Shown one piece after another: positions 2,475 through 58,612 of a stretch of DNA of 64,000 nt. Under the pieces are notes generated by a model, which worked only from the letters and a program-made list of their open reading frames with translations, ran no database searches and had not been told where the DNA came from. The DNA comes from Calliopsis andreniformis (lineage: Eukaryota > Arthropoda > Insecta > Hymenoptera > Andrenidae): assembly GCF_051401765.1 (NCBI RefSeq), contig NC_135073.1, positions 310,001-374,000 on the forward strand, given 5' to 3'. The position numbers and the translations under genes are program-made. The number at the start of each line of letters is the position of its first letter. The first letter of the stretch is position 1.

Positions 2475-3375
2475 ATAAATACAAGATATAATGAATATTA
2501 TTATTATGAATATTAATATTGACATACTAATTAAAGTATGTCAAAGAAATGTATGCAAAGGAACCCATGTAACGCAGACCCAAACGTACTTTCTTTAGGC
2601 ATATTTTGAGAGAATTATAACATTACTTTGTTATTGAATCTGCTAATGAAGGGATGAATTATTGAGCGCGCGTAAAACGGACATCCAACACATCTTGGCT
2701 GGCACAGCAGATTTTGCACAACAAATCGAAAAAATACAATAGCAGTAATGCTAGTTCACACGAAATATGCCTAAATACAATGTACCTTTGACCATAAAAT
2801 TTAAAACTTGTATATAGTGGAAAAGATAGAGATAGTAAACGTAGAGGTACTTACAGTGTTTTCTGCTGCGTGGTCACTTTTCTTCTGTCGCTCAGAACCT
2901 TGCCACGCAAGGTTGTTGGCGAATTTCCTCGCGCGAGGTGGAGGAAAGTAGTGGGGAAAGAAATAAGGGGTGTCCTATTGTAATGTATTGCTAAGTTCTC
3001 TCGGGTACCCAAGGTATACCGAAATATAATGAGACACTCGGTATATCTTCCCTCACTTTCCAATTTCCCCACACACATACATACCTACCTAAGGAGAGAA
3101 TTCGCTGGACAACCCTTGATTCTTACTTTCCCCATAAGATTCTAGGATTCAAAGCGCCTTTTTCACTCACTCACTATTTTATATCTCACTTGCACCATGG
3201 CCCGAGCGATACGTCATCGGTACACGTAAAGGTTTGCATACGCGACAATTTGAAAATTTATGATATTTTCAAGCATGAATATGGAGTCTCTTTCCATTCC
3301 GAGGCAAGTGGAGAAGAATCACTTTACCTTCCTTATTGTTATATTTATAATATAACAGAGGGGAAAATATTGATG
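2475..3375. other. No recognised gene
   Basis: This stretch lies upstream of the RGG-type gene and may hold its promoter. An open frame at 2851-3078 (minus) has no recognisable domain and I do not call it. I see no RNA gene or strong repeat here. Confidence 0.5.
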
Positions 3376-3406
3376 TTGGTCTGGGTTAGGTCTGGGTTAG
3401 GTCTAG
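3376..3406 (+). repeat. Telomere-like tract outside family A
   Basis: TTGGTCTGGG, TTAGGTCTGGG and TTAGGTCTAG lie in tandem. Unlike the other strong tracts, the surrounding sequence is not recognisably family A, so this may be an independent interstitial tract or a very diverged copy. Confidence 0.8.
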
Positions 3407-3583
3407 ATTGATGAAGCGAGATGAAATGTGGGGATATGGGGTACAATATGTCAAAGGATGTAGAGATCACCTACAAACCAAGTACCGAAAAACAAAATTG
3501 GTCGTATGCATATGCATGGGATAATAAAACAATTCTTTCCTATGCGTATTTCCGTCCGAAACGTATTTTCGTACATATGTATT

Positions 3584-3593
3584 CTATATAAAT
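3584..3593 (+). promoter_or_regulatory. Possible TATA box upstream of the Mutator/YqaJ gene
   Basis: CTATATAAAT lies about 280 bp before the first recognisable exon of the gene that follows. The position is plausible for a 5' leader, but nothing else confirms it. Confidence 0.3.
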
Positions 3594-3864
3594 GTGTCAT
3601 TGTACACTGATACTAATGCAACAGAGAGACGCGTGTGTCTGTGCTCTTGAACACGCTCTTGTGTTCTTCCTTTCAGTATCTTAGCGATCTGTAATATAAA
3701 CAAATCCGTGAAAGCATTGGGCATTGGAGGAACAGCTCAGTTCTTTGCTTTATGCATTACAGAAAAGTCGTACAAAGCATTCGAGCTTTGAAATACGAAT
3801 AGCGTATGAATTGTTACATACGCTGCTTTCGTGTTAATCGCGTGTGAATAGTTATATAGTGTGA

Positions 3865-6800
3865 TTGTGTGTGATTGTGGACAAAATTAATGTGGAAGTA
3901 ACACAGGAAAGCGAAGAAGGAAGACAAGGCAAGCGCTATGTGAAAGGAAAGAGAAAAGGCCGTCAACCTACAACGAATACGAAGCGTTTGTCTAAGAAGA
4001 AAAGGTGGAGAGAAAGGTAAATTACGTTTTAATTACAGATTCGCATGAGAGCAGTAGTTTGTAATGCAGTAATAGCATGATACTCTTTATTGTTGAATAT
4101 TGTAATATTTATATTGTTGGAATATATCAAGAACTATCCCGGACGTTTTACACAGATATTGCATGCTATGCGTAGCACAACACGTGTCGTCACTTCATCC
4201 CTATTGTGCCGTCCATCTCTTTTCCATCTGTACTTTGGTTGTGTTCTCTTTCTATAGCAGAAAGACCAGAAACGTATCGAACAATTCCTTCTAATATGTA
4301 TCTCGCATTTTTTAAAGATAAAGAAGCAAGAAAATCAAGTAAATTCGTAATTATATTTTAAAACTGGTAAATTAAACTTTTACTACCATTTGTACTTCAT
4401 TATACATAGTGAATGGCTCATAGTACCTGCACTATTCTAGAAATGAAAACTTTTTTCTGTTTTGCAATGTCCAATAAGTGATCCTTGGAGAGTTTTGTTT
4501 CGAAACAATCGGATTTTTCGAAGTCCAGGGTTTATTATACTGTTCAAGTCGTCATTTAGTCCATACCATACTAGCTTGCCTTCTAATTATGCGCTCTCTC
4601 TCTGTCTCTCTCTCTCTCTCTCCCTACCATTACACAGCCTATACTGCCCTATGCTACGTCGCGTCGCCTGCGTGTCAATGTGCGTCTGGGTTTAAGATAG
4701 GTCGTTCGAACCGTTTTATTATCCTGACTTTTCTCTAGCCATAAATATATTGACGGACCTGCCCGTGACCTGAGCATGGACCTTCAGCTACAAATTGCAA
4801 AAATAATCCCTTGAACAGGCTGACTGTTTTAGCTTAACAGGAATCAAGCGAAACTGTTTGCTTTTCGTTTGTACGCCACACCATTGAATGGTGACTATTG
4901 CCTTTATCCATTCATTTCAACGATATTTCTAATGTCTCGTATGCTTCATTCACAATGTAATGAGAGACAGCATGGGTGTATCGCATTTTACTATTCATCC
5001 GTCGCGCTTACTTCGAAACTTTTCCTCATGAAAGAACGATTTTTTCTAACCTGGGCCCAGTCTTCGGGACATTTTCCAGAGCTCACTCGTAACCTTGGTC
5101 CCAACAATATTTATGGCCCTTCAAATACCCTGCACTCCTTCACACTACTACAGTGAAGGCCAACGTTTTACTATCGCAAGGCATTCTCTGTTGACTTTCT
5201 CGTACGATATATACGATTTAAAATTGCTTATATACATATATTCTGCTATTTTCCTCATCCTTATAATCATTTACCTGGAGCTATTTTAATAACTCACCCT
5301 CGAATTACACTGCATGTGTATAGCATGTGATGACTATCATTTACACAGAATATTTAAACAGAATTATTTACTCTTTCTTTTCTGCTGCATATTTTATCTA
5401 TTTCTGTGTATGCACATATGGCTCATTAGCCAAACTTTATTTGCAGACAACGCCTCAGGAATGCAGCGTACCTTACGATGAATGAAAACGTAGATAATGG
5501 TACGCTAAATCTACCACTCGATCAGAGCGTATGCGGTATAGAAACAGGTGCTTCTACCGGTGCCTACGGCAAAGGCGAAGCATCTAGAGAAAATTCAAGA
5601 AATTCCAAAGATATCGAAATCATTGAAGAGATTATGGAAGTTGACTTCGATGTACGAGAAGAGCATCCCCTGAACATCAATAGGAGAGTTCAAGTAATTA
5701 CACCACTGCCGGATGAGTGTGAGCAGCCAGTCTATAATGAGATGCCAGAAACATCGATCCTGGACGAAGTGTTGGAAACCGAAGAAGAAATGAATGAAGA
5801 TGAAAATGATATTGATACAGAATGCAACTGGATGGTAGAAAGAGTAGAGAACCAGAACAGTTGGAACAACCAATTTCACAAGGCATAGACTTTGTTGATT
5901 TTGCATATGTTTTCGAACAGATAAAAAAACTTGCAAAACATTCAAATATCAGTTGCGGCATCGAACATTTTCAAATAGTTGGATTCCAACAAAACGGACT
6001 TGAGAAAGTCTACAACGTGCAGTGACAAATATGCAATCAGAACGAGCGCATATCATGTCTCCGAAAAAATGACAGCATTATGGACATCAATCGCAGCGCT
6101 GTTTCCACAACAATGGTAACAGGCGGCGGATATAATCAACTAGAAGAGATAATGTCTGGCATGAACGTGTCGTGTATGTCCAGAAGAATGTACGAGAAAT
6201 GTCAAGATGATATAATCGATGCCTTCGAACTGGCCGCACAGCGAGAAATGGAAGATGCTGGAAAAGAAGAGAGAGAACTGGCCATAGCAAGAGGCGACGT
6301 ACATCCAGAATCTAATATACCGTGGATCGCAGTTGTCGCAGATGGCAGCTGGATGAAGAGGTCGTATCGGGGTGGAGATTATAATTCTCCTTCCGGTGTA
6401 GGAGCCATCGTTGGATACCATACAAAAAAAGTATTATTTATCAGTGTAAAAAATAAATTCTGCATGATTTGCCACACAGCAGCTAAGAAGATGGAAGAAG
6501 CGCGCGAGCATCGCTGCTTCAAAAATTGGGGTCGCAATCAGACCTCAACAGGCATGGAAAGTGCTGCTATTGTGGAGGGATTCAAATGCAGCGTAGAAAT
6601 GCACGGCCTATTATACTCTATATTAGTTGCCGATGGCGACAGCAGCGTATATAAAAAGATACTGGATAATGATCCATATAAAGAATACATGGTGCATGTT
6701 CGGAAAATTGAATGCACTAATCACCTTCTACGTAATTTCGGTAGAAAAGTAAACGAAATCGTTTCAAAAGGTCGATACAAGGAACTGAGAGGCATTGTAA

Positions 6801-16436: not shown

Positions 16437-17525
16437 ATTTAATTATAAATTATTATAATTAAAAAGTAAACATATTAAATTAATGTATTTTTAGCAATGT
16501 CTTCTTTTATTTTGTATATATCCAGACCTAACCCAGACCTAACCCAGACCTAAGAACATATAAATATTATAAACAATTTATATTCTTTATTTTTAGTTTA
16601 TTATTGCATGTAGAATCGCTCTTTCTCGATTGTATCAGCTTGTACATAAACTTGTTTTAATTTAATTTTTCATACAAAATACACAGAGAATGTCATCGTT
16701 TCATCTTTAAACTCATCCCTCAAAATTTCATAAGAAGTTTTGAAGATCTCACCGAATAATCTCCTTCCGAGTCGAAACGTGAAAATATCTATAATATCAA
16801 AAAGGCTGCTTGTGCCGTGTTGCGCTTGCCGAAGCGTTTCAAGCTTCTTTCCGAATCTTTCCGAAGCCGTCCGAAGCAGTCCGAACCGCCGAGCTCACTT
16901 TCTGTTCGAACCTTACAATGTCACTCGGAATGACTTTTCATGGGACTTCTTGTGGGACATGAACGAAACACGCAGCTCGTATAGTTGCATGTGTAGTAGT
17001 GCGTCAAATTCTGGAAACTCGCGTGCCAACTCAGGGCAGCACGGGCCTCCTGATTAGGCGCTGCCTGGTGTGTTCAAGTGGAACTAAACTTGTCAGTTTT
17101 TTACTCTGTTTTATCTCTAACCTGGCAAAAAGCACTGCCAAATCGCGCTGACGCTTTACGTCCTTATATTGGAAGGTTTTGAGCTGGAAAAGGGCTCATT
17201 CGATAGAGGAAGGATCAATCTAGCCCGCGCTGGTCATGATTTCGCTCAGAACAATCTCTAAATTAGCTAAAAATGCTTAGATTTCATGGCTGTGAATTTG
17301 TCGATTTTTGCTTTACTTTGAACACTCATATTACTGAACATCAGCAGAATCTGATTAAATAATGACCAGCGCGGGCTAGATTGAACCTTCCTCTATCGAA
17401 TGAGTCCTTTTCCATCTCAAAATCTTTCAATATAAGGACGTAAAGCGTCAGCGCGTAAACCTATGTTTTTGCCTAATTTTGTCGGTAATGTCACCGCCCT
17501 GACATATCTGATCCTAGGCCCTTAA
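16437..17525 (+). mobile_element. Family A repeat, copy 2 (5'-truncated)
   Basis: It matches the reverse complement of 962-2045 along its length: the 3' end of the RGG exon, the telomere-like tract, the CTTCGGA-type segment, the hairpin (about 17140-17455) and the end ATCCTAGGCCCTTAA at 17525. The gene part is missing because a truncated LINE and poly(G) replace it. Confidence 0.9.
16522..16553 (-). repeat. Telomere-like tract in family A copy 2
   Basis: Almost three units of the complement CCCAGACCTAA are found (CCAGACCTAA followed by two full units). Confidence 0.9.
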
Positions 17526-26540: not shown

Positions 26541-27765
26541 TGTTACGTACGGAGAATATTTTCCGTCTACTCTCCCAAATATTCAAGTCTCTGCCTGTTA
26601 AGAGAAAACGCCCTAGCACTCTCGTTTTTTTCGTTATCTTAATGTAAGCGCGACTCCGAGCAGCTGGGTACCAACCACGACGCTGTACCAACCGTGAGAA
26701 ATTTCCTTATATGGAAATTTCTGACGAACCCCCACTCATTTTTCGGCCTATATAAACTCAGAAATTTTAGCCCTAACGGGTTCAGAACAGTACCGTCACA
26801 TTGATAGTCAAGTTTGTCAGAATTGGTTGCTATCCAGTTAGATCGGGCTAAAGTTCCCTTTCGAGTCTACAGTTAACCTCATAGAATCCGCGAGTCGGCA
26901 TAAATTCTATCTGGCAATTCCTACGACCACTCTGTAAGTCCCCGCATCGCCAGTGCGTTAACACCGTGCATTAATATCATACACTTTACGCGACAACACT
27001 ACACTGTACACTTGTACGTAAAGACTGATTTAGAATATATTTAAGTATTCATTGTAAATTTGCGTAGATTGCTTACAAACCTATAACTACCTTAAGCGAT
27101 CCCATTCGAAGTTGACAGATCCACCACGATACAGCTTAACCGCTCAAGTTGTATCAATTAATAATTTAAAAAGTTACGAGGCTCACTAACATCTCCTGCG
27201 GCTCTCTGATGTTACATCAGTTTCGTCCGCTTACCCTTACTTCCAAAGAAACTGCATTCAACCTAGTGGCTCTTCGATTTATTCGAGTTCATCCACGAAA
27301 GCTAACCTATCCTGTAGCTAACTGATTTTTACATCAGTTTCGTCTACTTCTTACAGCTACCTGATACCAGGTTCGTCTGTACATTATCCAACTTCCTTAC
27401 AGCTCCCTGATTTCGCATCAGGCTCGTCTGTTCGAATTCGCCAACCTCCTTAACAGCACCTCAATTTAATTTGAGTTCGTCTGTAAAACTGATCCTAGTG
27501 ACTCCCTGATTTCGCATCAGGTACGTTTACAAACTCACTCTCCTGCGGCTCACTGATCACCGATCAGTTTCGTCCGCAAGCACACCTATCCTCAGAGGCT
27601 ACCTGATTTTACGTCAGGTCCGTCCTCGTCTACAATAATCCTAACGGCTCACTGATCTGGCATCAGTTTCGTCCGTGTACCAACCAACACATCAACCACT
27701 ATATTCTTTGGAAATATACTTATCCTCGACGGTAACTCGCGCTGCTCGCCTCCCGTCTCGTAACA
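26541..27765 (-). mobile_element. Solo LTR, copy 1
   Basis: This 1225-bp sequence is the inverse of 40251-41477. Read on the minus strand it starts TGTTACGAGACGGG and ends CCGTACGTAACA, the TG...CA ends of an LTR. Flanking tetramers CTGC and CTAC differ by one base and may be a 4-bp target duplication. A TATA-like box lies at about 26749-26756. No internal retrotransposon genes are attached. Confidence 0.75.
27198..27676 (-). repeat. Array of ten structured inverted-repeat units in the LTR
   Basis: This is the inverse copy of the array at 40340-40818 and confirms each unit. Where the other copy has lost pairing (units 5 and 6), this copy keeps it: unit 5 has CTCAAATT/AATTTGAG-type arms and unit 6 has ACAG/CTGT outer arms. 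Confidence 0.9.
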
Positions 27766-34792: not shown

Positions 34793-35425
34793 GTATATAG
34801 AGTGTCCCACATAAGGTGGCGGAGACGAAAAGGGGAGATTCCTGGAGTGATTCTAAACAACCTTTTCCCTTGTAAAAATGTTTTGTGAAACTTTGTTAAC
34901 GAGTTATTAACGAAAAACATTGACCAATCAGAGAGCGCGAATAGCGAGCGCTCGGCTGTCCAATGACAGGGCACAAGCTACACATAGTGTTTACTCTCAC
35001 TGTGCTCGAATCTTATACAAGAAACTCAAGATCTCTACGTTATTGCCCAATTTCTCTTAAACTATTAGATAAAAAATTATGAAAAAAATCAGGGACACCT
35101 TAGTTATTCTAACACATATTATGGAATTTTTTCAAATTTTGAAATTAATTATCCAAGTTGTAAAAAATGAAAAACGAGGAAAAGGAATTTAAAAATGCCG
35201 ATTTAATAAAGTAATGCCATAGTAAGAAAATAAAAAGCAATGTTTTCGTTGTTCCTACAGATTGTACATTATTTTACTGGGTATCAAAACATTGAAAATT
35301 GTACAAAAATACTTATTTCATAAGGAATGAATGAAAATTAGACGTATTAGTTGCTGTAATCGGTAAAAAGTACGCAAACATCAGTTTTTATTTTTTGAAT
35401 TATAACGGACCAAAGCAAAAAACGT
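34793..35425 (+). repeat. Family E repeat, copy 1
   Basis: Starting near GTGTCCCACATAAGGTGGCG, about 630 bp match the reverse complement of 54185-54882. It has no coding capacity and interrupts the capsid-like pseudogene. Confidence 0.85.
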
Positions 35426-38692: not shown

Positions 38693-39812
38693 CAGTAATG
38701 TTGCGGACGAGAGCCGCTCTCGGGTCTGGTCGCGACTCTCGTCCGCGACTGGTAGTCGATTCGGCTTCCTTTGCTCTCGGTCTCCGAGATAATTGGTACA
38801 CGACCGGAGAAGCAAAAAAAAGGGTCTCGCTCGAGCTCGATGCCCGAAATCAATGACGTCAGAAAAGACAAGGATAGCATTAGGGATTTAATAGGAAAAA
38901 TTGAAGTTCCTTATTTGCAAACAGATTTTCACGCAAGTAACACCAATCGATTCCTTGTGCTCTCCCGATAAAAATGATATCAAATACGACATGATTCCTA
39001 TTATTTATAATAAAGATATTTAAATAATAAAAGTTGGAACCCTGCGACGGTTACGGAGAATCGTCAAAGTTACTTTTTTATCAGTTCTTTACGAGCTAAA
39101 AATGACATAAACAGAATTTATGTATATTATATTTAATCGATGTCGGAAAGAAGATATTAAAAATAAAAAAATAAAAATTTCTAAACATTTAAAACGGAAC
39201 TTATATGCATACTTTTTGTATTACGCTTTCATTTTCTTAATAATTTCGGTCATTAAATAATTAAACACAAAAATATGAGGGAATAATAGGGAGTTAGCCC
39301 TACGACGAGAGCCGCGCTCGTCGAATCGACTACCACTCACGGACGAGAGTCGCGCTCGGGTTTAGTCGTGCCTTAGAATCGACTACCATTCACGGACGAG
39401 AGCAGCGCTCGGGACTGGTCGTGCTTAAAATCGACTACCACTCACGGACGAGAGTCGCGCCCGAGTCTGTTTACGAGCATGACCTTTCGTTCTACAAACC
39501 AAGTTTTATGTATCTTTGTTACAAATAATCGGAATCATGTCGTGTTTGACATCATTTTAATCGGGAGAGTACAAGGAATCGATTGGTGTTACTTGCGTGA
39601 AAATCCGTTTGCGAATAAGAAACTTCAATTTTTCCTATTTAAATCCCTAATGCTATCGTTGTTTTTTATGACGTCCTTGTTCTCGGGCGTCGAGCTCGAA
39701 CGCGATGGTTCCAAGAATTGGTTTCTCGGCGGCACGTATCAAACGAGGTAGTGGGGATAAACCACGGCTCTCGTCCGTGTAGACGAAACGGCTCTCGTCC
39801 GCAACATTACTG
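38693..39812. mobile_element. Family F TA-flanked nonautonomous element, copy 1
   Basis: TA (38691-38692 and 39813-39814) flanks inverted termini starting CAGTAATGTTGCGGACGAGA. Internal sequence is also largely inverted: about 38850-39000 mirrors 39490-39700. A second full copy is 61517-62537. TA duplication and CAGT ends fit pogo/Tigger-type Tc1-mariner elements. No transposase frame is present. Confidence 0.85.
39303..39470. repeat. Minisatellite of about 53 bp, three copies, inside family F
   Basis: GGACGAGAGTCGCGCTCGGG-type blocks start at 39341, 39394 and 39446, joined by AATCGACTACCA-type linkers, with a partial copy at 39303. Confidence 0.85.
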
Positions 39813-40339
39813 TATGCTTAATTGCGCTAAGCTGGCACGTTTTGCCAACTTTTCTGGAAGTCGCTAATGTCATGTGAACTCACACGGCTTGTGACGGCTG
39901 TGCATTGAGACACCTTTACTCAACGTGAGGTATAACAGTGGAAAGAAAAGCAATGGAGAAAGAAAGGCCTAATTAATATCAATAACAGAAATAGGAAATA
40001 AATTGAAGAAAAAATGTTCTTCGATTTTAGAGTAGAATATATAATACAGGTAGCCCTCCTACCACACGGCATCCTATAACACGGTTTCGCTATAACACGA
40101 TTCACAAATTGCGGGCACCCTCTTATAACACGGCATCCTATAACACGGTTTCGCTCTAATACGATAAGAAAATTGCAAAAACCTTTGTACAACACTGTAC
40201 TTTCTACAACCGCGACGAGGCTTGACGTCTTAAAGATACAGTGTTGCAGATGTTACGAGACGGGAGGCGAGCAGCGCGAGAGACCGTCGAAGATAGGTAT
40301 AATTCCAAAGAATATAGTGGTTGATGTGTTGGTTGGTAC

Positions 40340-40818
40340 ACGGACGAAACTGATGCGAGATCAGTGAGCCGTTAGGATTATTGTAGACGAGGACGGACCT
40401 GATGTAAAATCAGGTAGCCTCTGAGGATAGGTGTGTTTGCGGACGAAACTGATCGATGATCAGTGAGCCGCAGGAGAGTGAGTTTGTGAACGTACCTGAT
40501 GCGAAATCAGGGAGTCACTAGGATCAGTTTTACAGACGAACTCAAATTAAATTCAGGTGCTGTTAAGGAGGTTGGCGAGTTCGAAGAGACGAGCCTGATG
40601 CGAAATCAGGGTGCTGTAAGGAAGTTGGATAATGTACAGACGAACCTGGTATCAGGTAGCTGTAGGAAGTAGACGAAACTGATGTAAAAATCAGTTAGCT
40701 ACAGGATAGGTTAGCTTTCGTGGATGAACTCGAATAAATCGAGGAGCCACTAGGTTGAATGCAGTTTCTTTGGAAGTAAGGGTAAGCGGATGAAACTGAT
40801 GTAACATCAGAGAGCCGC
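40340..40818 (+). repeat. Array of ten structured units in the LTR U3
   Basis: Each unit of about 33 bp has an outer stem of four bases, a constant internal loop (ACGAA or ATGAA on one side, GAG or TAG on the other), an inner stem (mostly CCTGAT/ATCAGG or ACTGAT/ATCAGT) and a five-base loop. Unit starts: 40340, 40389, 40439, 40486, 40532, about 40586, 40636, 40669, 40720 and 40786. Outer stems differ but pair: ACGG/CCGT, GAGG/CCTC, GCGG/CCGC, GTGA/TCAC, ACAG/CTGT, GTAG/CTAC, GTGG/CCAC. Most units are followed by AGGA. The array lies 89 bp inside the LTR and upstream of its TATA box. Confidence 0.92.
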
Positions 40819-41260
40819 AGGAGATGTTAGTGAGCCTCGTAACTTTTTAAATTATTAATTGATACAACTTGAGCGGTTAAGCTGTATCGTGGTGGATCTG
40901 TCAACTTCGAATGGGATCGCTTAAGGTAGTTATAGGTTTGTAAGCAATCTACGCAAAATTACAATGAATACTTGAATATATTCTAAATCAGTCTTTACGT
41001 ACAAGTGTACAGTGTAGTGTTGTCGCGTAAAGTGTATGATTTTAATGCACGGTGTTAACGCACTGGCGATGCGGGGACTTACAGAGTGGTCGTAGGAATT
41101 GCCAGATAGAATTTATGCCGACTCGCGGATTCTATGAGGTTAACTGTAGACTCGAAAGGGAACTTTAGCCCGATCTAACTGGATAGCAACCAACTCTGAC
41201 GAACTTGACTATCAACATGACGGTACTGTTCTGAACCCGTTAGGGCTAAAATCTCTGAGT

Positions 41261-41267
41261 TTATATA
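41261..41267 (+). promoter_or_regulatory. TATA box of the LTR
   Basis: TTATATA lies about 210 bp before the LTR end, in the place expected for the LTR promoter. The same box is kept in the other copy at 26749-26756. Confidence 0.6.
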
Positions 41268-41851
41268 GGCCGAAAAATGAGTGGGGGTTCGTTAGAAATT
41301 TCCATATAAGGAAATTTCTCACGGTTGGTACAGCGTCGTGGTTGCTACCCAGCTGCTCGGAGTCGCGCTTACATTAAGATAACGGAAAAAAAACGAGAGT
41401 GCTAGGGCGTTTTCTCTTAACAGGCAGAGACTTGAATATTTGGGAGCGTAGACGGAAAATATTCTCCGTACGTAACACAGAAAATATTTCTTTTCATTTC
41501 CGTAGCCTGAAAACAAAAGTGCCTCACGCTGCTGGTCGGCAGTCTGCATCGAGCCACGGTGTGTTAAAGAATAACTTTTCCGTCTTTAAGACATTAGGTT
41601 TCAGTCCCAAGCCGTATCCGATAAAGAGAAAAAAACAACATTTAAGAGGAAATTTACTTCTTGAAAAGTAAAGATGCAAATTTTTGATCATCTTTTAAAA
41701 GCAGAAAAAACATCTCGCATTAGAAAAAGTCTTAATTTAAATGAAGCAACAGTCCGGACTATTAAAAAAAATGAAAAAAAATAAGAAGTGCAGTTGCTGC
41801 AGGATCTTCGACATCCGGAAAACGTACAGCTTGCGCCCAGGCGTCAATAAT

Positions 41852-44800
41852 ACTGTCCAACACGATTTTTCATCTGTAATATCCAGTGGGTGATCCTTGT
41901 AGAGTTCCCCATCCTAAATACGAATCCGACAGTGGAATTGCTCTATCATCCTCAGTTTTCGAAAAACACGCATTTTTGTAAAATAGCACAATTTTGGGTA
42001 AAAATGAGATATTACATAAATCTAGGAATGCTAGAAAGTTCGGACTGGTTTTAAAAAATAGAAGAGAGTTTCCTAAACAGACTAGTGTAGGTAGATTTAA
42101 TTTTCCTTATTTCAAGTGATTGTAAATAGCCATCAAAGTTCAAAAAAAAGCCATCGCGCGCACTTTCTTCGCTGTATTTTCGTAATTTTACAGAAAATTC
42201 GGCGTCTAGTACGAATTTACTACACAGCATCAGATTCTATGGACATTTCCGAAGAGAAAACCGTCCATTAAACGTGTCGAAACAGAATTAGATTCGAACA
42301 AATCGAGAAAATATCAATCGGTAACGCGTGCACGATGCTTCGCCGCCACGCGGCCATCGCTCGTCTGCCTCGTCTCGGCAATGCCGTAGCTACACGAAAT
42401 CCGAACCGATAGTATGGTCCAATTGGGCCCCCATTTTTTGTATGTATGATCTTTCAATTCTTTCACATATCTTTGCATACGAATCACTGAATTGGAAAGT
42501 ACCTTTCCCATCATCATACTTATTCTTAGTTATAAACAATTTCAATATTTATTGCCCGAATACGAATTTTTTGTTAAAATGGAACTGTTAAAGGCTGTTG
42601 CATTCGTGCATAAATTTTAAGATTTTTCTACGGTAGAAATTAAATATGTAAAATAAGGAATTACCTGATTCATCGTCCATACTAACAAACTTAAAAGTGC
42701 TTTCTTGCTGACTGTCGTTTATGTTGTGTGTCCTTGTTGTCCTTTATAAGGGTCCAACAGTAGTCTGCAAGCATTGCAGATATGTCTTTTCCTTGATATC
42801 TTTTCTCTATTCTGGATATATCTTGATGAAAACGTTCACCATGTTCATCGCTGACATCACCGAGGTTTGCGGGGAAAAAGTCCAGATGTGAATGTAAAAA
42901 GTGAATTTTGAGGGACAGGTTGCAGCCAAGGTCTTTACATGCGTTGAGTAGTTCATTTACTATGGAAACATAATTTTTGGATTTATGCTTTCCCAGGAAA
43001 TTCTGAGTGGTTTTTATAAAACACAGCCATACTTTTTTTTCTAAGTTGTTTAATTGTTTTGGAAAGTGGCTATCTGCCATCAATTCTTTAATTTGGGGGC
43101 CGACAAATATACCTTCTTTTATTTTGGCTTCAGAGATCGATGGAAATTTTGTCTTTAAATATGCAAATCCCGATCCGGATTTATCCATTGCCTTTACAAA
43201 GTTTTTCATGATGCCAAGCTTTATATGTAATGGTGGCAAATACACTTTTTGAGGATCAATGAGGTTTTTGTATTTAATATTTTTTTGTCCGGGGATTAAA
43301 TGTTGGCGTGGTGTCCATTCTTTTTTTATGTAATGTTGATTCCTTGCTCTGCTATCCCATTCGCAAAGGAAGCAACAATATTTCGTGTATCCTGCCTGGA
43401 GCCCAAGTAATATTGCGATTACCTTTAGGTCACCGCAGGCATTTCAATTATGTTTTTGGTATTGTAGCTTCTCTAAAATGATTTTTAGAGAATCATAACA
43501 CTCCTTCATTTGTGTCGTGTACGCAACTGGTATAGACGGATATACATTCCCGATGTGTAACAACACAGCTTTCAAACTAAGTTTTGACGAATCCACAAAT
43601 AGTCGCCATTCCATCGGATTATGTTCAAAACCCAAAGCTTTCATTAATGCGTCCACATCTATGCACACACAGAGGTCTTGAAACACGCAAAAATATTGTT
43701 GTAATTTGTATTGTCGTGTTCTGAAATATGTAATTTTTGTTTCACGTTGTAGTAAATTCCACTCTTGCAATCGAGATCCTAATAATTTAGCTTAATCTTT
43801 TGATAACTGTAAATCTCGTACAAGATCATTAAGGTCGGTTTGGGAAATAAGATGCGGCTGTTTCGATGTCGAGGGAATTTCCGTATCATAATTTTGGTTT
43901 TCATCAAATTCGATTTTTTCAGGTGTAATGTCTTGGTATGTACTCGGTGCATTTGACGGTGGTATTGGTACCGGTAGTTCCTTTGAATGTGGAATAGGAC
44001 GAATTGCGGAGGGTACATTTGGGTACTCGATGCTTTTCTTTCCCTTTTTGTTGCAGCCGGAGATTTTGCACAAACAAAAGTAACAGTCTGTGGTATGGTT
44101 ACTTGGTTCTCTCCATACCATCGGAACTGCAAATGGCATCTTTTTCCGATTTCCTCTCAACCAAGCTAAGAGGGTCAAAGCACAACGCTGGCAACACACA
44201 TGAGGAGCCCAATACTGTTCTTGATCCCCAAGTTTGCACCCAAAATATTGTTCATAAGCAAACTGTATTGGTGGAGTTATACTTCGACGCTGTGATTTCA
44301 AAACCACTTCCCCGCAAACGTAACAAAAAGAGTCTGGCTGATTCACGTAGTTACGCGACATTATGATACACGACACAAAATACAATAGTACAATATATAC
44401 AGACACTTAACACTAATGTAATATATGTCTATAGAATGGAAGGAATATTGAAGCACACACAAAACTATATATAACTACAACATAGACACACACTTAACAC
44501 TAATACATATGTCAATACAGTAAAAAAATTCAAGTTCGCTACAAAATTCTATATAATTCACAGCACACGGTTATGTGATGCAACGAATTTTCTATACTGC
44601 TTAGCACGACCGACTGAAACAGTTTCTGAAGCAATACTGAGCTCTACTTAAAACAACGAAAAGCGAACCATAGCATTTTAAGAGATGTTTATTTTTCCTC
44701 TGATTGTATCGAACGATTGAGAGAAACATCGAGCGATGTTTAGATTTCATAAGGGTGCGCGCGGCAAGAACTGCTTCTTCTCCGTCTTCACGAAATCTCA

Positions 44801-45769
44801 GAACCTCGATTAAGTGAACTAGATTTTCCATGATTTTTGTTATTTAGGATTTTGAATATTCGATATACTACCGATGAAACTACAGAAGAACCCCGTTCAA
44901 ACTTCGATCTCTTATTTAGTATTAGTTCATCAAAAATAAGTTTCACTTTAATGTCATTAGTTCATCTAAAACCAGAGTTAATTTGAATAAAATAAAAAGT
45001 CTACTGTATTACTTTTCTATTTGAAACTGCATTTCATAAGTGTCCAACAATGGATTTATTAAAAAAAGACGATTAAATGAACAACTATATAACTAACGAT
45101 TCAATAGACTTTACATTGCTTTCACGGGAACCTCCCGTTTAATAAGTGCATTGGATATTGAATTTTTTAAAATTAACAACAAATTCAGTGATCGGAAAGG
45201 TGCTTTCCAATTCAGTGATTCGTATGCAAAGATAGAAAGAAAGAATTGAAAGATCATACATACAAAAAATGGGGGCCAAATTGGACCATACTATCGGTTC
45301 GGATTTCGTGTAGCTACGGCATTGCCGAGACGAGGCAGACGAGCGATGGCCGCGTGGCGGCGAAGCATCGTGCACGCGTTACCGATTGATATTTTCTCGA
45401 TTTGTTCCCGAATTTTCTGTAAAATTACGAAAATACAGCGAAGAAAGTGCGCGCGATGGCTTTTTTTTGAACTTTGATGGCTATTTACAATCACTTGAAA
45501 TAAGGAAAATTAAATCTACCTACACTAGTCTGTTTAGGAAACTCTCTTCTATTTTTTAAGACCAGTCCGAACATTCTAGCATTCCAAGATTTTATGTAAT
45601 ATCTCATTTTTACCCAAAATTGTGCTATTTTACAAAAATGCGTGTTTTTCGAAAACTGAGGGTGATAGAGCAATTCCACTTTCGGATTCGTATTTAGGAT
45701 GGGGAATTCTACAAGGATCACCTACTGGATATTACAGATCCGAAAAAAAGTTTGTATTTGTTGGACAGT
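41852..45769 (-). mobile_element. Unclassified 3.9-kb element with 0.6-kb terminal inverted repeats
   Basis: ACTGTCCAAC at 41852 and its inverse at 45769 open long inverted repeats: about 41852-42515 mirrors about 45160-45769, with high identity. One gene (42691-44361) is encoded between them on the minus strand. No target duplication is clear. I do not recognise the superfamily. Confidence 0.8.
42691..44361 (-). pseudogene. Unknown zinc-binding protein of the long-TIR element, two in-frame stops
   Basis: From ATG 44361 one frame runs 556 codons to TAA 42691, with only two internal stops: TAA 43792-43794 and TGA 43444-43446. The N-terminal 130 residues have C-x2-C groups (CYVCGE, CCQRC, CYFCLCK) that look zinc-binding. 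The middle is acidic and proline-rich. After the second stop lies CCFLCEWDS, then a well-structured C-terminal part (LHIKLGIMKNFVKAMDK, HSHLDFFPANLGDVSDEHGE, ADYCWTL). I have the impression that similar proteins are scattered through arthropod genomes, but I know no assigned function. As the only gene in the element it could be a transposase-type recombinase; this is inference. An Asp/Glu/His-rich C-terminal half is compatible but not proof. Confidence 0.7.
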
Positions 45770-54184: not shown

Positions 54185-54882
54185 ATGAGCATTTTTTGCT
54201 TCCGTTTGTCATAGTTAAAAACATAAAAACCCATGTTTCCGTACATTTACCGATTATAGCAACTCATACGTCCAATTTTCGTCCATTCTTTATGAAATAA
54301 ATATTTTTGTACAATTTTCAATGCTTTGATACCCAGTAAAATAATGTACAATTCATAGAAACTACGAAAGCATTGCTTTTTATTTTCTTACTATGGCGTA
54401 TCAAATTAAAAAATGTGAAAAAAATGTTACACAATGGTATTAGTGATATTTATATACTAAATTAATATGAATTCGGCATTTTTAAATTGTTTTCTCTGGT
54501 TTTTTATTCTTTAAAATTTGGATAATTAATTTAAAAATCTGAAAAAATTCCATAATACGTATCGCGACAGCTAATGTATCCCTGATTTTTTTTATAATTT
54601 TGATTCCAATAGTTTAAGAGAAATTGGGCAATAACGTAAAGATCTTGAGTTTCTTGTACAAGGCTCGAGCACGGTGAGTAGTAAACGCTACAGGTAGCTT
54701 GTGCCCTGTCCCCGGACGCCTGTCTTCCGCTATAGACGCTCTCTGATTGGTCGATGATTTTCGTTAATAACTCGTTAACAAAGCTTCAAAGAACATTGTT
54801 GTAAAGGAAAAGGTTGTTTAGAATCACCACGGAAATCTCCCTTTTTTCGCTCCGCCACCTTATGTGGGACACCCTATATAGA
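54185..54882 (-). repeat. Family E repeat, copy 2
   Basis: The reverse complement matches 34793-35425, including GTGTCCCACATAAGGTGGCG at one end and the block around GTTGCTATAATCGGTAAA at the other. This copy extends slightly further. It has no coding capacity. Confidence 0.85.
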
Positions 54883-57724: not shown

Positions 57725-57843
57725 ATTAAAACAAGTTCATGATGATTTCATATTAATTTACTTACAAACAATAACAGTAAACGAATTTTAGTTATCTTTT
57801 TGTATATGTGGCGAATTATTTCCAATTCGTTTCTCCTTCCGGT
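57725..57843 (-). repeat. Family H repeat, second copy
   Basis: Inverse of about 8650-8770. It joins the palindrome directly at the telomere-like tract. Confidence 0.65.
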
Positions 57844-58612
57844 TTGGTCTGGGTTAGGTCAGGGTTAGCTCTGGGTATATACAAAATAAGAGGAGACGTT
57901 GCTAAAAATACATTAATTTAATATATTTATAATAATCATCAGAATCTCGGTTGCCGCTGCGACCCCGACCGCGGCTTCTCCCATACTTCCATTTACGGAC
58001 TTTCTTTTTAAAATCCCAGAACTGTAATATGAAAAATAGACACGTTATTCACGAAATTTACTTCGTTCTTGAACAAAAAATGAATAGATAAATTACTTAG
58101 CGCTTTAGCATAAGATCGCCTATGATCTACGTACGTTTTGTCGTCATGCCTCCTCTAAAGCTAGCGCCGACGCCAACGCCGACGCCCGACGCCCACACCA
58201 ACGCCGACTCCAGCGTCGGCGTCGGAGTCGGTGCAAGCTTTAGAGGAGGCATGACGACAAAAGATACGTAGATCATAGGCGATCTTATGCTAAAGCGCTC
58301 AGTAATTTATCTATTCATTTTTTGTTCAAGAACGAAGTAAATTTCGTGAATAACATGTGTCTATTTTTCATATTATAATTTTGGGACTTTAAAAAGAAAA
58401 TCCGCAAGTGGAAGTATGGGAGAAGCCGCAGTCGGGGTCGCGGCAGCAACTGCGAACCTGGCCTGGGGGGAAGAGGCGGGAACGGGGGGAAAAATATAAT
58501 TATAAATTATTATAATTAAAAAGTAAACATATTAAATTAATGTATTTTTAGCAATGTCTCCTTTTATTTTGTATATATCCAGATCTAACCCAGACCTAAC
58601 CCAGACTTAAGA
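57844..58612. repeat. 0.77-kb palindrome made of two family A gene ends
   Basis: The left arm (57844 to about 58190) and the right arm (about 58200 to 58612) are inverted copies of the family A segment from exon 1 end to telomere-like tract. The centre lies at about 58195 in a GC-rich run of ACGCCGACGCC type. Each outer edge holds a telomere-like tract (57844-57875 and 58579-58610). The left-arm gene copy keeps the intron acceptor (TTACAG); the right-arm copy has lost it. Confidence 0.88.

Follow-up and report, generated by a model that had tools for sequence, protein, structure and literature searches.

What is the ten-fold repeat at positions 40340–40818 of the window (a 64,000-nucleotide stretch of the Calliopsis andreniformis genome, positions 310,001–374,000 of contig NC_135073.1), and why would a mobile element carry it? 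The array is housed in a 1227-bp long terminal repeat (LTR; window 40251–41477, TGTTACG...CGTAACA) of an errantivirus-like Ty3/gypsy element. An earlier note on this DNA had described ten units with two stems each, and the array was confirmed at that place. The units probably form a selected nucleic-acid structure, located in what is predicted to be the 5′ leader of the element RNA, where it may serve as a packaging signal. Start-to-start spacing is 33 to 66 bp, and the pairing analysis delimited the units as follows ("sense" refers to the coding orientation of the element).

40340–40372, minus strand: unit u1, last in sense
40389–40421, minus strand: unit u2
40439–40471, minus strand: unit u3
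40486–40518, minus strand: unit u4
40532–40563, minus strand: unit u5, one inner pair broken in the window copy
40585–40617, minus strand: unit u6, one outer pair broken in the window copy
40636–40663, minus strand: unit u7, shortest inner stem (4 bp)
40669–40702, minus strand: unit u8
40720–40750, minus strand: unit u9, inner stem CTCGA/TCGAG
40786–40818, minus strand: unit u10, first in sense, T.T state in the window copy

The general form of a unit was taken from the full-length copy of the element on contig C381. In sense, it reads CCT, 0–2 bases, a 4-bp outer stem, C(T/A)(C/A), an inner stem of 4–6 bp, a loop of 4–6, the second strand of the inner stem, NNCGT and the second strand of the outer stem. 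The earlier description of a constant internal loop, ACGAA against GAG, was correct in outline. Some of its positions vary, however, and what is constant in the ten C381 units is (in sense) a C opposite CGT. The CCT just 5′ (sense) of the hairpin had been overlooked; it precedes all ten C381 units, compared with a background of 22% among the 7-mers of the array; in relatives, 88 of 150 units have it. When 18 units of two subfamilies were submitted to RNAalifold with no structure imposed, the program drew both stems with a C-G pair between them, and eight of the nine predicted pairs had two-sided changes (u7 was misplaced in this alignment). A bulged U flanks the C-G pair on one side; on the other side, bases are left unpaired, the constant C among them. 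Between this pair and the inner stem, each unit has two weak positions.

Do the two stems change in a compensatory manner? Eight of the ten window units were aligned, u5 and u7 being excluded because they shift. In these eight, 96.3% of stem cells pair, compared with 81.4% after shuffling and 25–39% when the partners were slid. Two-sided change was found in seven of the ten pairs and one-sided change only in none. Three pairs are broken in the window copy (in sense, u5 G.G, u6 C.C and u10 T.T). The other 31 of the 32 fetched matches, counted with duplicates, all have the u5 and u6 pairs intact, whereas the u10 pair is intact in 16 of the 32. In the C381 copy, all 96 stem cells are Watson-Crick pairs, a count that none of 20,000 shuffles reached (best, 87). 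Among 23 distinct fetched copies, 2183 of 2208 cells are Watson-Crick and all 96 pairs are intact in ten copies. The u10 pair accounts for 13 of the 25 exceptions.

The comparison was extended to relatives of the element. The unit pattern gave 489 matches in the genome, versus 1 for a reversed control. From the matches listed, 20 stretches unlike the main family were picked by eye, all of them on contigs C1–C3, and the LTR stretch was ~95% to 70% identical in 19 of these (none in L047). These relatives retain the array, the most distant ones with different stems. A model built from the eight window units (R1) gave 168 matches in the 20 stretches at E up to 5. By construction, every stretch has at least one unit in which the unit pattern prescribes CTGAT, ATCAG and TTCGTC, and R1 is biased toward its own fold. 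In the 150 aligned units of the relatives (137 distinct), 90.6% of cells pair, compared with 77.0% after shuffling and at most 42% when slid, and 233 cells carry a two-sided change, versus 77. The distant subfamily, ~70% identical, has seven recognized units at L042:1830–2156 and eight at L052:3992–4366, with the loop TTCGC in 11 of these 15.

A tree-based covariation test was then applied to 138 distinct units; it follows the idea of R-scape but is not R-scape, and its tree came from the same 33 columns. Stem pairs took ranks 1–3 of 465 column pairs, the first with an E value of 0 (not reached in any of 200 null sets), the second with 0.005 and the third with 0.38. The two significant pairs, 8–24 and 2–32, lie outside the letters fixed by the unit pattern. 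The units show the compensatory changes beyond phylogeny expected of a selected nucleic-acid structure, two of the ten pairs being significant singly. The proposal of the earlier note, that both stems change in a compensating way about an asymmetric loop which is largely fixed, is supported; it had staked its case on covariation among many copies and relatives, which is present for these two pairs singly and for the structure overall.

Matched changes could also arise without selection, if template-switch repair of imperfect palindromes acted on an ancestral hairpin array. The pairing-preserving changes between window units, all two-sided and without G.U intermediates, would suit such repair. 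The asymmetric loop within the hairpins was not repaired away, though, and the history of the array speaks against it on two further counts given next, so that we regard this explanation as very improbable.

This history was followed on a tree of 24 LTR copies built from non-array sites, comprising 11 main-family copies, a selection of the fetched ones, plus 13 relatives (the partial copies L033 and L045 were dropped; L035, L036, L037, L044, L047 and L051 were never included). Internal branches carry 10 two-sided and 18 one-sided breaking changes, compared with 6 and 119 on terminal branches (Fisher 3.5e-5). Eight of the ten internal two-sided changes lie on the long L042/L052b branch, where the orthology of u8 and u10 is doubtful, and after dropping the five two-sided events of uncertain orthology the contrast has p = 0.014. 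The 14 internal "repairs" reflect mostly decay in L042 and L052b. On internal branches, stems and internal loops accumulated 0.26 changes per site, versus 0.43 in spacers and R (p 2e-4; by class, stems 0.28, internal loop 0.23, spacers 0.44, R 0.43). On terminal branches, the corresponding values were 0.83 and 0.80 (p 0.68; 0.80 to 0.84 for all four classes). Fewer changes on internal branches and equal numbers on terminal ones fit constraint during replication of the element and none after insertion, i.e., an LTR structure that decays once inserted. That internal-branch changes are fewer in stems and loops only is the first of the two counts against template-switch repair.

The second is the u10 pair. 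At the first inner pair of u10, T-A stands in 13 of the 16 relatives that have letters at this place, and the two nearest, L034 and L046, have T.T. The 21 main-family copies divide into 12 with T.T and 9 with A-T, and divergence outside the array is 2.2% for the T.T copies and 0.42% for the A-T copies. Read in this order, the pair appears to have stepped from T-A through T.T to A-T, with the restored pair carried by the youngest burst. The broken intermediate T.T thus precedes A-T.

Where in the element does the array lie? Window 40251–41477 is an LTR, with TG...CA ends, a short target duplication and ends common to the copies. A genome search with the array gave 277 candidates, of which the best 40 were scored, and these had 97–100% identity throughout. 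The same LTR ends, within ~25 bases, were found in 19 of 20 stretches fetched around array matches, L026 being shortened at one end. On contig C381, two identical LTRs, matched 12.2 kb apart, enclose the full-length element. There, gag, pol, the Baculo_F env pieces and a Tudor-domain frame all run opposite to the strand first used. The purine tract AAGGGGGGAGA stands before the 3′ LTR, and the primer-binding-like TGGTGACAGCGG, a candidate site, begins a few bases past the 5′ LTR. Because of the gene direction, the purine tract and the primer-binding-like site, sense corresponds to the minus strand of the window. The relevant features are listed below.

40247–40250, no strand: target-site duplication CAGA, left, read in the window (the 4-bp duplication was checked in the window copy only)
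40251–41477, minus strand (= sense): solo LTR, ends read directly, orientation from the genes, purine tract and primer-binding-like site of the full-length copy
41478–41481, no strand: target-site duplication CAGA, right, read in the window
41260–41267, minus strand: TATA box TATATAAA, predicted promoter, sense LTR 211–218, exact in 10 of 16 aligned copies
41077–41082, minus strand: GTAAGT at sense 396, a candidate splice donor ahead of the array, unchanged in 12 of 16 aligned copies (altered in L040; absent from L034, L042 and L052b)
41041–41046, minus strand: ATTAAA, candidate polyadenylation signal (R/U5 border), sense 432, exact in 8 of 16 aligned copies
26541–27765, plus strand: second LTR copy in the window, with its array at 27198–27676

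With the genes on the opposite strand, the array (sense LTR coordinates 660–1138 of 1227) therefore lies downstream of the TATA box. It is placed in the predicted R/U5 (repeat and unique 5′ region), i.e., in the 5′ leader near the primer-binding-like site, with the start site itself predicted. The assignment to U3 (the unique 3′ region) and to the 3′ part of the RNA, made in the earlier note, is not supported: the direction of the genes, the purine tract, the TATA box and the primer-binding-like site all point to the predicted leader. Lying downstream of a predicted promoter and recurring at ~50 bp, the units could also be sites read in duplex DNA, as in an enhancer array or in an insulator of the gypsy Su(Hw) kind. 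The stem letters vary with pairing kept, whereas a reader of duplex DNA would conserve letters, and we consider such sites highly unlikely.

The C381 leader, taken between the predicted start and the ATG of gag, contains no ATG in 1123 nt, compared with 10.2 expected (0 of 2000 dinucleotide shuffles were that low). Its antisense strand has no comparable depletion (18 versus 22.6 expected), and the array alone has none versus 3.9 expected (P 0.0065). The leader is free of ATG in 3 of 16 aligned copies (C381, L046 and L034), and the other 13 have 1 to 10; downstream of the predicted start there are two in the window copy and one in the copy at 26541. The ATGs in older insertions would come from decay. 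This sense-strand depletion suggests that ribosomes scan the leader, and the array could then tune gag translation, either by confronting scanning ribosomes with ten moderate hairpins along a leader that lacks ATG or by binding them through the CCT-hairpin modules. Single sense hairpins of the window copy are indeed moderate, at −5.6 to −12.3 kcal/mol. The depletion, however, spans the entire leader rather than the array alone, and mere hairpins would not need the constant C/CGT core; a role in translation is quite unlikely.

What would the array bind, if it binds a protein? Interchangeable stems and a constant, repeated core are as would be expected of a site for a multivalent ligand. We tentatively propose, giving it somewhat less than an even chance, that the ten tandem hairpins in the predicted 5′ leader bind a protein multivalently and are most probably the packaging signal for the element's own Gag. 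Packaging is the best single guess because the leader position is near the primer-binding-like site and because Gag has one CCHC zinc knuckle and a basic stretch (21 R/K in 86 residues). The sense RNA would fold each unit into a hairpin, the C/CGU core would be the protein contact, and the repetition of units would give avidity for Gag. The candidate splice donor upstream of the array would confine the array to unspliced, packageable RNA. A packaging signal would be expected in the transcribed leader ahead of gag; the direction of the genes, the primer-binding-like site, the TATA box and the lack of ATG are consistent with such a place, given a start that is itself predicted. The ATG-free leader and the gene order also argue for sense RNA as the folding molecule.

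A bolder form of this proposal, which we consider doubtful, is that the array would be a new RNA element, a tandem "ten-handed" aptamer array presenting the same double-bulge core on interchangeable stems, on which Gag or the Tudor-domain protein would bind in register and nucleate assembly. It would be the first packaging array of covarying tandem hairpins among insect retroelements, retained in subfamilies ~30% diverged. To our knowledge, how Ty3/gypsy and errantivirus genomes are distinguished from other RNAs is poorly understood. A ten-fold covarying motif with a small constant core in a unit of ~33 nt would be a direct handle on genome recognition, and with such a unit, ligand fishing, structure probing and variation of the unit number (dose) would be easy.

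The same covariation data would equally fit a platform for a host RNA-binding or export protein, which, like some retroviral transport elements, would serve nuclear exit or compartment retention of unspliced RNA. The CCT ahead of each unit suits such a platform, and the bulged U and unpaired C about the C-G pair resemble the peptide-binding bulges of the bovine lentivirus trans-activation response element (TAR). Known export elements, in contrast, lie near the 3′ end and have purine-rich loops, and Rfam 15 gave no covariance-model match up to E 10 for window 39500–41500 on both strands. We judge an export platform unlikely.

Several observations weigh against packaging of a sense RNA. Statistically, the number of pair types in the eight window units is not above shuffles, nor is it in the 150 aligned units, where pairs with any two-sided change numbered 9 versus 8.3 in shuffles; of the ten stem pairs, eight are individually non-significant (one with E 0.38, seven with E 5.6 or more). 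The start, donor and polyadenylation sites are guesses, and we know of no packaging signals that are tandem arrays of near-equal units. As for the molecule that folds, G.U states were about as frequent in sense (73) as in antisense (66) among non-Watson-Crick states, new G.U on internal branches numbered 10 and 7, respectively, and the C381 copy is without any G.U, which is odd for RNA. Given these near-equal counts and the absence of G.U from the C381 copy, wobble pairs tell neither the strand nor RNA from single-stranded DNA. The antisense fold is more stable in nine of the ten window units. On either strand, the fold of the whole array was better than that of every one of 100 shuffles; in the predicted sense fold, u10 pairs with u1 and not with itself.

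Some of these observations would suit hairpins that act in single-stranded DNA, as cruciforms, or in an antisense transcript. R and U5 are both present in minus-strand strong-stop DNA, and wobble pairs are poorly tolerated in hairpins of DNA. This reading has in its favor the strict Watson-Crick pairing of all 96 cells in C381, the lack of strand bias in wobble states and the more stable antisense folds. Such hairpins, on the other hand, would be present in ten copies without apparent reason, and the sense ATG depletion is as expected of a messenger RNA leader. We hold this explanation to be quite improbable, and packaging by Gag is retained as the preferred one.

The element proteins indicate its class. 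Pfam matches to reverse transcriptase, RNase H and then integrase follow in that order in pol of L029, the order of Ty3/gypsy elements (Metaviridae). The env, of the errantivirus type, matched PF12259 (Baculo_F) at E 4.4e-28, with a second piece at 8.3e-4, below Pfam's cut-off. In the C381 copy (L030), the Baculo_F pieces lie at 144–689 and 2996–4102, 2.3 kb apart, and the interval is without a frame of at least 120 amino acids on that strand; env of this copy looks interrupted. A 196-amino-acid frame at L030:4562–5149, ~170 bp before the 3′ LTR, contains a Tudor domain (PF00567, E 1.1e-16). No homolog of this frame was found among 135 word-sharing candidates or, by sequence, among solved structures, and the open-access literature, in the parts available, gave nothing on a Tudor frame within an insect endogenous retrovirus. 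A Tudor protein in a retroelement could bear on the PIWI-interacting RNA defence.

Other repeats neighbor the LTR in the window. A 64-bp tandem repeat of the TATAACACGG type (40054–40195) ends 55 bp from it and resembles pogo/Tigger-like ends. Repeats of the form CGGACGAGAG...CTCGG with inverted copies, another short array, adjoin the LTR at 38704–39473. Long inverted repeats at 41872–42541 and 45161–45739, 2.6–3.6 kb apart and with three main arms 97–99% complementary, are likely a young inverted-repeat element. Further inverted pairs, ~19 kb apart, lie at 34794–35367 and 54246–54880, with longer arms 85–91% complementary. Short arrays of TTAGGTCTGGG or its complement were found at 1930–1963, 16522–16553 and 57841–57876; this motif occurs in the literature, including, by title, work on hymenopteran chromosomes, and the arrays would suit a hymenopteran host.

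Several known identities were considered for the units and rejected. The letters CTGATG and CGAAA occur in the units, but by eye their order is not that of a hammerhead. Minimal Twister-sister-like ribozymes consist of two stems around an asymmetric internal loop in 31–35 nt, a layout that the array units share (PMC11620745, available in part); by eye against that source, the loop columns conserve neither the CA at the cleavage step nor its partner residues on the opposite strand. A kink-turn or tandem G.A core on the antisense strand is inconstant between the C381 units (by eye), and the unit spacings are not consistently multiples of three, as a coding repeat would have. IMG/VR contained no relative of the reverse transcriptase part of the element. 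One unit-pattern match each was found there in 54 contigs, in which model R1 detected no array and gave 26 weak matches in total, three of them in L056, whose frames look prokaryotic-virus-like by eye. The open-access literature, as far as its text was available, held nothing resembling the array.

How, finally, does the array compare with known systems? With the packaging signals (psi) of retroviruses and Ty3/gypsy elements, it shares the leader between promoter and gag, the vicinity of the primer-binding site, paired elements and a zinc-knuckle Gag. It differs in having ten near-equal tandem units with a common core, and its role as such a signal is putative. Bovine lentivirus TAR, a lead only, likewise has two single-nucleotide bulges flanking one G-C pair in a hairpin; it is a single copy at the RNA 5′ end, whereas here there are ten, on the 3′ strand and of other sequence. 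The Su(Hw) array of the gypsy insulator also consists of repeated short sites in an errantivirus leader, but those are duplex-DNA sites with conserved letters, whereas here the letters vary and the pairing is kept. Among errantiviruses and insect endogenous retroviruses, the LTR and 5′ untranslated region are the most divergent parts, and no hairpin array is described in the available part of that account (PMC12992720). The C381 element has in common with them gag, pol and a Baculo_F-type env (PMC12992720, same part), and it has the Tudor-domain frame in addition.
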